A DNA stretch of 64,000 nt from Elusimicrobiota bacterium (lineage in GTDB: Bacteria > Elusimicrobiota > Elusimicrobia > JACQPE01): NCBI GenBank assembly GCA_016180815.1, contig JACPAN010000015.1, positions 140,680 through 204,679 of the forward strand, read 5' to 3'. Of the stretch, positions 44,299 to 45,996 are shown piece by piece. The number at the start of each line of letters is the position of its first letter. Positions within the stretch are counted from its first letter, which is position 1. The notes below the pieces were generated by a model. It ran no database searches, was not told the DNA's origin, and saw nothing but the letters and a program-made list of their open reading frames with translations. Made by a program: the position numbers and the translations under genes.

Positions 44299-44372
44299 GG
44301 CAACAGGGGAACTGCTCCCCCCTCAATATTCTAGCCGCCTGCGCGGCAAATGCCATAATCGATTTGGTTTTG

Positions 44373-44876
44373 ATGATGTTCATTTTAAGCGTGGTTATTT
44401 TCCTGCTGGCGGCGGCGGCGAGCCTGTTTTTACTGGCGTTGGGCTTGCCGGGCAATTGGGCGCTATTGGCCGGCACATTATTGGCGATCGCGTTAAGCCC
44501 GAAGGCGGCGCTCACATTCGGCGCGGTGTTTATTTTGCTGGGCGTGTGCATTTTCGCCGAGGTTGTGGAGTGGCTGTGCGGGGTGTTCGGAGCGAGGCGC
44601 TACGGTGTGTCTAAGGCCGGGGTGCTGGGCGCTTTAATCGGCGGGTTGATCGGCGCTATTTTGTTGGGCTCCGTGATTCCGGTGGTGGGTGCGATCCCGG
44701 GCGGGTTTATCGGGACGTTTTTGGGCGCTTTTTTGGCGGAGCTGTCGCGCGGTCAAAATAGGGAACAGGCGCTGCGTCTGGGCTGGGGCGCGTTTACGGC
44801 GCGGATGCTGGCGTTGGTGGCGAAATTCGGGGTGACTTTCACCATGGCCGCGATCGGGTTTTTCTTTCTTTTCTAA
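44373..44876 (+). CDS. DUF456 membrane protein
   Basis: About 167 residues, almost entirely hydrophobic with Gly-rich helices. LGLPGNWALLAG near 25 and AVLGALIGGLIGA-like glycine repeats near 85-120 match DUF456. Function unknown. The ATG at 44373 (or 44376) is preferred over a TTG at 44364. The stop codon TAA ends with the first base of the left terminal repeat of the element that follows, so the element inserted right behind this gene. Confidence 0.85.
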   Translation: MMFILSVVIFLLAAAASLFLLALGLPGNWALLAGTLLAIALSPKAALTFGAVFILLGVCIFAEVVEWLCGVFGARRYGVSKAGVLGALIGGLIGAILLGSVIPVVGAIPGGFIGTFLGAFLAELSRGQNREQALRLGWGAFTARMLALVAKFGVTFTMAAIGFFFLF

Positions 44877-45149
44877 GGGGTCGCGGAGAAATAATATGTA
44901 CATTTTGGAGGCCCAGATTTGAGCCGTATGCTAGGCGCGCCGAGCGCAGCGTACCTGGAGGGTACGTTAGCGAAGGCGCAACGACGCAGACGGCCAAATA
45001 TGGGCCTCCCCGAAGGGCCAGGGCATTTTTGGGCTGCGACTTTGCCGGATTTTTTTTACGTACCTTGCAGGCACGCCGCAAAAAATCCGGCTTCGTCTCG
45101 CTCCAAAATTGCTCTGGCAAAATGTACATATTATTTCTCCGCGACCCCT
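44876..45149. mobile_element. MITE-like element with 32-bp terminal inverted repeats
   Basis: Bases 44876-44907 and 45118-45149 are identical inverted copies, 32 bases each, starting AGGGGTCGCGGAGAAATAAT. Within the left arm begins a second unit (44907-45009) with its own 15-base inverted ends, GGAGGCCCAGATTTG and CAAATATGGGCCTCC, one mismatch apart. This inner unit belongs to the same family as the copy at 1-69. A further perfect 12-base hairpin, GCCGGATTTTTT/AAAAAATCCGGC, lies at 45044-45091. There is no transposase; both flanking genes end exactly at the arms. It explains the gap between genes here. Confidence 0.8.
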
Positions 45150-45996
45150 AACAGGGGAACATTTTCCGGACCGTCGTTTCCACGACAAAAAGGCCGGCGT
45201 CCGGGCGCTTGTCTTCGCTGGCATACACGGAGGAGCCGGCCATGGCTTGGTGCAGGTAAGGCAGGTAATTGACCAACTCCGATTCCAAAGCCCGGAAAAT
45301 GATGAAGCGGCTGAACAGGCGTTTCCCTTTCTTAGACTCCATCTCGGCCCAGTATTTTCTGATCACAGGGTCTTCCCCTTTGATTTTTGTGTTGGGGTGG
45401 CGGAAGACAGAGCCGGATTTGGGGTAAAACCAACCACCCTTTTTGTTTCGGCGGGCAAGGCCGATTTTTTCCAAGTCGCGCAAGACGGTTTGGGCGTTTT
45501 TTGCGGGAAATCCGAGCAGGCCGGCGAGATTGGCCGCATCCCAGGCTTGGCGGTTATTCGACAGAGTTTGATGAATCCAATAATGCAGGGCGGATTTTTT
45601 GATGGCTTGTGACTGCTCCAGGTTTAAATTCGTCACGGATTGCTCGCGGGCTTTGCCGATGGCGGTTTCCAGCGGATGGCGGCTTTGAGTTTGCTGGGCG
45701 GATAAAAGGGGGACGATTAATTCATCGAAACCGTGCTGCCCGTAGGCGGATTTTAAATGAGCCAGAACAAATTCGCGGATCATGGGCCGGTCCGTGACCG
45801 GCCAGAGCAAACGCCTTAAAGCCAGCAGGGTTTTGGCTCCGGGCAAAGAATGCCCATTTTCCAAATTCAGGTATTGGCGGTAGGAGCAGCCGAGAGCGGC
45901 GTTCCCCCCGTTCTTGTGATAGAACTCGTAGGCGGTTTTAAAGCCGGCTTTGCGGCGCATTTTGACCAGCGTGGGGCCGAAGGCATTGGCTTTCAT
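45148..45996 (-). CDS. HTH transcriptional regulator-like protein (XRE plus winged helix)
   Basis: 282 residues. About 5-65 resembles a Cro-type helix-turn-helix (CSYRQYLNLENGHSLPGAKT). About 150-190 looks like a winged helix (NLAGLLGFPAKNAQTVLRDL, then EKIGLARRNKKGGWFY). The layout recalls the TIGR02147/DUF4423 group of regulators, which I suggest with caution. Its stop codon lies on the outer edge of the MITE-like element, so the C-terminus may have been altered by the insertion. Confidence 0.6.
   Translation of the reverse strand: MKANAFGPTLVKMRRKAGFKTAYEFYHKNGGNAALGCSYRQYLNLENGHSLPGAKTLLALRRLLWPVTDRPMIREFVLAHLKSAYGQHGFDELIVPLLSAQQTQSRHPLETAIGKAREQSVTNLNLEQSQAIKKSALHYWIHQTLSNNRQAWDAANLAGLLGFPAKNAQTVLRDLEKIGLARRNKKGGWFYPKSGSVFRHPNTKIKGEDPVIRKYWAEMESKKGKRLFSRFIIFRALESELVNYLPYLHQAMAGSSVYASEDKRPDAGLFVVETTVRKMFPC

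Follow-up and report, generated by a model that had tools for sequence, protein, structure and literature searches.

The 64,000-nucleotide stretch of DNA analyzed here (hereafter the window) carries a short palindromic element between a gene for a DUF456 protein and an oppositely oriented gene for a DUF4423-domain protein, with both genes ending in the triplets that flank it (Table 1). Its two arms are complementary at 32 of 32 positions, confirming the perfect inverted ends reported in the first-pass annotation. That annotation gave a gene-less element of 274 bases. The open reading frames that cross it do enter from the flanks and are not gene-like, but the TAA triplets, which from the letters look like a 3-bp target duplication, lie directly on both sides and thus bound the element at 44877–45148, trimming it to 272 bp. 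The outer 15-base pair of hairpin B (44907–44921 with 44995–45009), previously described as an inner repeat with inverted ends, is present with one mismatch (14/15), while the 12-base stem of hairpin C is perfect, as claimed (GCCGGATTTTTT with AAAAAATCCGGC, 45044–45055 with 45080–45091). The window element is therefore short and non-coding, with terminal inverted repeats and a TAA/TAA target-site duplication, as is characteristic of miniature inverted-repeat elements (MITEs).

Table 1. Features of the element and its flanks, in window positions.
Feature	Positions	Strand	Basis
Flanking gene, DUF456 protein, ending in the duplication	44364–44876	+	ORF list, domain match
Apparent left target-site duplication TAA, doubling as the DUF456 gene stop codon	44874–44876		Sequence
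Left arm: terminal inverted repeat, outer stem	44876–44907	+	32/32 against right arm; covarying stem, 47 copies
Element proper, 272 bp, GGGGTCGCGG...CCGCGACCCC	44877–45148		Sequence, arms, copies in own genome and class
Hairpin B, with conserved GGCGCG (44934–44939) and GCAACG (44978–44983)	44907–45009	+	Complementarity, fold, alignment, covariation
Linker/turn CCCCGAAGGG joining hairpins B and C	45008–45017	+	Sequence, alignment
Hairpin C, with the perfect 12-bp stem inside	45017–45118	+	Sequence, complementarity, fold, covariation
Cross-phylum motif, left half: TTTTGGGCTGCGAC plus one further T	45027–45041	+	Pattern scan; nearly invariant columns
Cross-phylum motif, right half: GTCTCGCTCCAAAAT	45095–45109	+	Pattern scan, alignment
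Right arm: terminal inverted repeat, outer stem	45118–45149	-	Pairing with left arm; covariation
Flanking gene, DUF4423-domain protein (stop 45148–45150), ending in the duplication	45148–45996	-	ORF list, domain match
Apparent right target-site duplication TAA, overlapping the DUF4423 gene stop codon	45149–45151		Sequence

Folded as single-stranded DNA, the element reaches -102.5 kcal/mol, whereas shuffled sequences average -44.9 (z -15.1; none of 200 shuffles equals it), and its RNA folds give z scores of -15.8 and -16.8, one for each strand. The computed fold of the single strand is T-shaped, comprising a long outer stem of ~32 bp and two hairpins. The inner repeat had been read as one element nested in another, and single-hairpin versions do exist; most copies nevertheless have hairpins B and C together, in a constant order, so that the structure is better described as a single T-shaped unit.

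The host genome (2.85 Mb in 39 contigs) contains further copies at approximately ten other loci, the longer matches being 76–84% identical; some are interrupted by a contig end or a scaffold gap, one consists of hairpin C only, and three have no more than the hairpin-C core in common with it. A count of the exact 32-base arm, proposed in the first-pass annotation, returns the window copy alone, but the unit including its arms recurs in relatives, e.g. in G003 (contigs C15 and C12), where it is 82% identical over positions 1–260. Across the class, 27 of 98 genomes carry the element, with identities of 82–85% within the same family and ~65–70% elsewhere. Moreover, a pattern scan with the hairpin-C motif detected at least 119 stretches, and the matches listed come from Elusimicrobia, Omnitrophota, NPL-UPA2, a deltaproteobacterial MAG (Proteobacteria), Ghiorsea, a Flammeovirgaceae MAG and a cultured member of the Bacteroidota, Niabella drilacis DSM 25811. 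In N. drilacis a 161-bp version with one hairpin is present ~50 times (50 forward and 51 reverse matches to the arm), and 12 of the 29 unique copies read are identical in sequence and inserted at different places. Most other copies measure between 161 and ~295 bp. Collections of phage, plasmid and viral contigs contained no match, and an origin on such carriers was dropped. That the structure is a chance palindrome or an assembly artefact is extremely improbable: three copies (L007, L010 and L011) do lie at contig ends or a scaffold gap, but the fold departs from chance at z ~-15 and intact copies with different flanks occur in many independent assemblies, including a cultured isolate and a complete genome, which refutes this reading.

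The flanks of these copies bear on their mobility. Of the 23 scored copies with type-A tips in other genomes, 22 have the same triplet, TAA or TTA, on both sides. TWA stands on both sides of all but one of the 29 unique Niabella copies (loci L066–L206), its middle base being equal left and right in 20 and different in 9, a mismatch that would not follow from a simple staggered cut. Outside type A, the tips border on TA instead of TWA, or the flanks are YTAR-like, so a single transposase does not account for all copies. Empty sites in relatives, a check suggested in the first-pass annotation, were found for two copies other than that in the window: the L003 copy of the host genome is missing between adjoining orthologous flank genes in G001:C96 and G003:C66, and G029:C4 lacks the L044 copy of genome G010 where the orthologous pair of genes meets. 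For the window copy, no orthologous pair of flanks was found within its family. In G003:C66, the intergenic gap that corresponds to L003 (L338, ~1880–2180) exceeds the joined flanks by ~275 nt and was considered as a filled orthologous site; its sequence is an unrelated insertion.

On the strength of the copies, their ends, the duplication and the empty sites, we consider it likely that the element belongs to a family of non-autonomous fold-back DNA transposons (MITEs), whose tips are moved in trans by an IS5-type DDE transposase with a 3-bp TWA duplication. The earlier MITE-like designation is upheld by the dispersed copies, terminal inverted repeats, TWA duplications and the two empty sites. 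In this model the long arms would be the terminal inverted repeats, their tips (GRGYCYGT directly behind TWA) being cut and joined by the transposase; insertion, which often falls on or beside a stop codon at a gene border, would yield the 3-bp TWA duplication; and the element, when single-stranded, would fold into the T, with its ~32-bp outer stem and two hairpins bearing nearly invariant motifs. The core hairpins may represent a subterminal binding site.

The identity of the two arms had been taken as a sign of recent movement. The closest other copy in the host genome is at most 84% identical to the window element, and the family as a whole retains the pairing of its arms as their sequence drifts. 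In 75 non-Niabella copies, the arms are 93% alike within a copy, and left arms compared between copies average 55%. We aligned 47 copies selected for having arms; these sequences are related, so the following counts are not independent events. In this alignment 95.7% of cells are paired, against 76.5% when shuffled and 34.8–42.7% when slid, the covariation score is 0.518 against 0.166, and double changes occur in 77 of 91 pairs overall, including 31 of the 32 outer-stem pairs. When copies are compared pairwise, outer-stem positions differ on both sides 11438 times and on one side 1966 times, and G-T or A-C intermediates are scarce (42 of 1430 cells). Either rapid correction of an arm from its partner or strong selection for the fold is compatible with this pattern. 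Quasi-palindrome correction is an established process, and template-switch correction of this kind at replication would be the likeliest cause of the retained pairing, possibly helped by selection for folding. Since outer-stem pairing is kept despite drift, most copies are expected to feature near-perfect arms whatever their age; and because arms stay paired through double changes in diverged copies, perfect ends are no proof of recent movement. Identical inverted ends are thus no clock, and the family offers a large copy set for studying how long palindromes stay paired in bacterial genomes.

Within the 47-copy alignment, G-T cells outnumber A-C cells (132 vs 62 overall, 74 vs 18 in hairpin B), with 34 of the former coming from a single pair whose consensus is G-U. 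This excess hints at a requirement for one particular strand to fold.

In the host genome, a similar core is enclosed by at least four arm types, namely AGGG(G)TC.., AGTGCTGCGACC../AGTGGACGCAGC.., CTCTACTGTG.. and GAGTCTGTCC.., and further types occur in Omnitrophota (CTGAGCC... behind TA) and in Niabella (GAGCCTGTTTAAA behind TWA). Between L001 and L012/L015, the hairpin-C core is 0.76–0.79 identical while the arms, at 0.48–0.52, are near chance (0.46). This disparity, and a core motif that crosses phyla with different arms, raise the possibility that the conserved hairpin core is the true replicator, passing between transposases with the arms as exchangeable adapters to different enzymes. 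Tentatively, then, the folded core might cross phyla by pairing with different transposon ends, so that several unrelated transposases could move it, and constitute the persisting lineage, its pairing kept by replication-time palindrome correction. Against this, most arm types share CATTT at their inner ends, which would favor fast evolution of the tips over swapping of arms between cores; the arms may simply diverge fastest at their tips, and no single site was caught with one core and two arm sets. Three stretches of the host genome, L355 (~1514–1595, contig C10), L356 (~1557–1638, C14) and L357 (~1221–1303, C20), feature the hairpin-C core within unrelated arms, either CTCTACTGTG.. with CTAG/TTAG-like flanks or GAGTCTGTCC.. 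with a possible CGAG duplication.

The window element was described as lying exactly between two convergent stop codons, which is true of this copy and not typical of the family: scorable copies lie in 4 convergent, 6 divergent and 28 tandem contexts. Orientation bias in the tandem contexts was not significant (10 vs 18, p 0.18). By a crude ORF test, a gene reads into 77 element sides, ending in the tip or duplication in 25 cases and inside the arm in 31, and we infer that the TWA target together with stop codons in the arms may let gene-end insertions do little harm. The L044 copy in G010 lies between two same-strand genes, with the upstream frame continuing into the arm and the downstream frame opening in an arm remnant. 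The strong RNA fold, the position at gene borders and the covariation would also be expected of a functional RNA or regulatory element, such as a bidirectional terminator or mRNA stabilizer, spread for the benefit of its host. We regard this as improbable, given that the element matched no family among the Rfam covariance models at gathering score, that convergent sites are few with no significant orientation bias in tandem, and that orthologous sites in relatives lack the element. A bidirectional terminator or orientation-dependent RNA in particular was rejected, there being bias neither in orientation nor toward convergent genes.

A transposase acting from elsewhere, as the first-pass annotation had proposed, is plausible. 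However, the search it suggested for a transposon with the same ends was unsuccessful: neither the host genome, Niabella nor the loci compared with the arms yielded an autonomous element with these arms, and no transposon with ends like the other arm types was found among the collected loci. Similar tips alone were found, on the IS5-family elements L291 and L296 from two class genomes, which encode DUF4096 and DDE_Tnp_1 (NCBIfam transpos_IS5_3). Their tip, GAGCCTATCC behind TAA, and their 3-bp TAA duplications resemble the TWA and GRGYCYGT of the window family; they differ from it in carrying a transposase, in having ends of only ~20 bp and in lacking the core hairpins, and the inner arm sequence is not shared. 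We take elements of this IS5_3/DUF4096 type to be members of the IS427- or IS1031-like groups. An IS5-type transposase acting in trans is our best lead and probably the helper. PF01609 is missing from several copy-rich genomes (G010, G029, G062, G063, G065, G077 and G089), although such assemblies readily lose repeated sequences.

Other candidates for the helper were set aside. The ends of the DUF772 (IS1182-type) transposon of Niabella differ from those of the element. Unpaired arms might mark the ends of an autonomous element, but those inspected in G010 and Omnitrophota resemble solo arms or truncated copies. Tourist-like MITEs of the eukaryotic PIF/Harbinger superfamily are characterized by a TWA duplication, GGGYCTGT-like tips and a foldback structure, and resemble the window family in all three respects but for their eukaryotic hosts; a Harbinger-type transposase was rejected as the helper, DDE_Tnp_4 being absent from the 18 genomes tested.

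It is also conceivable, though unlikely, that the folded single strand is itself the mobile substrate, with a single-strand transposase or recombinase acting on the T structure as RAYT (Y1) enzymes do on REPINs. The element is under strong structural constraint, can fold as a strand and combines two inverted hairpins with nearly invariant motifs, all of which would suit such an enzyme, as would the hint from the G-T excess that one strand matters, and Y1_Tnp genes occur in most element-carrying genomes of the class. Y1 transposases, however, would not be expected to leave target duplications, dozens of element matches occur in G010 without a Y1_Tnp match, and the element lies beside the gene at none of the Y1 loci examined, for which reason a RAYT link was discarded. 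REPINs are likewise paired inverted hairpins, dispersed and mobile in trans through their RAYT transposases (PMC3116915); the window family differs from them in its target duplications, its long covarying outer stem and its lack of linkage to a Y1 gene, and it thus departs from the REPIN/RAYT pattern of no target duplication and REPs flanking a Y1 gene.

MITEs are short, gene-less elements with terminal inverted repeats and target duplications that reside between genes and yield stable stem-loop transcripts (PMC10969869), and the window family has these traits. It differs from ordinary MITEs in its covarying T fold spread over several phyla, in the several unrelated-looking arm types that surround one core, and in having no recognized parental transposon. 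An IS982-derived MITE in Cardinium has undergone a recent burst in a Bacteroidota genome alongside an intact parental IS (PMC9769881); the Niabella copies are similar in their recent burst, but without a recognized parental IS. Intrastrand-triplex repeats (PMC4666352) were rejected, as their sequence differs. We found no description of the family in the open-access literature searched, which excludes ISfinder entries, and an earlier description may have escaped us. Should the family prove as widespread as the pattern scan indicates, it would be a rare case of a bacterial MITE that crosses phyla with a recognizable structure, and the copies in the cultured N. drilacis make its mobility testable.

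Two minor observations concern incomplete copies. The window opens (position 1 to ~96, from G000:C15:140680; L010 and L011) with half of another copy beside a 7-N scaffold gap, and contig C12 of the host genome begins with the same 72 bases. The assembly breaks, and may also be misjoined, at these palindromes, and the family may explain such assembly breaks. In Omnitrophota MAGs, solo arms lie directly at start codons (L237 3526, L238 3056, L239 2955 and L233 3041) of genes for an mlaF-like ABC ATPase, the cytidylate kinase cmk, lpxA and a glycosyltransferase, and at two of these the GGAGG of the arm could act as a ribosome-binding site.
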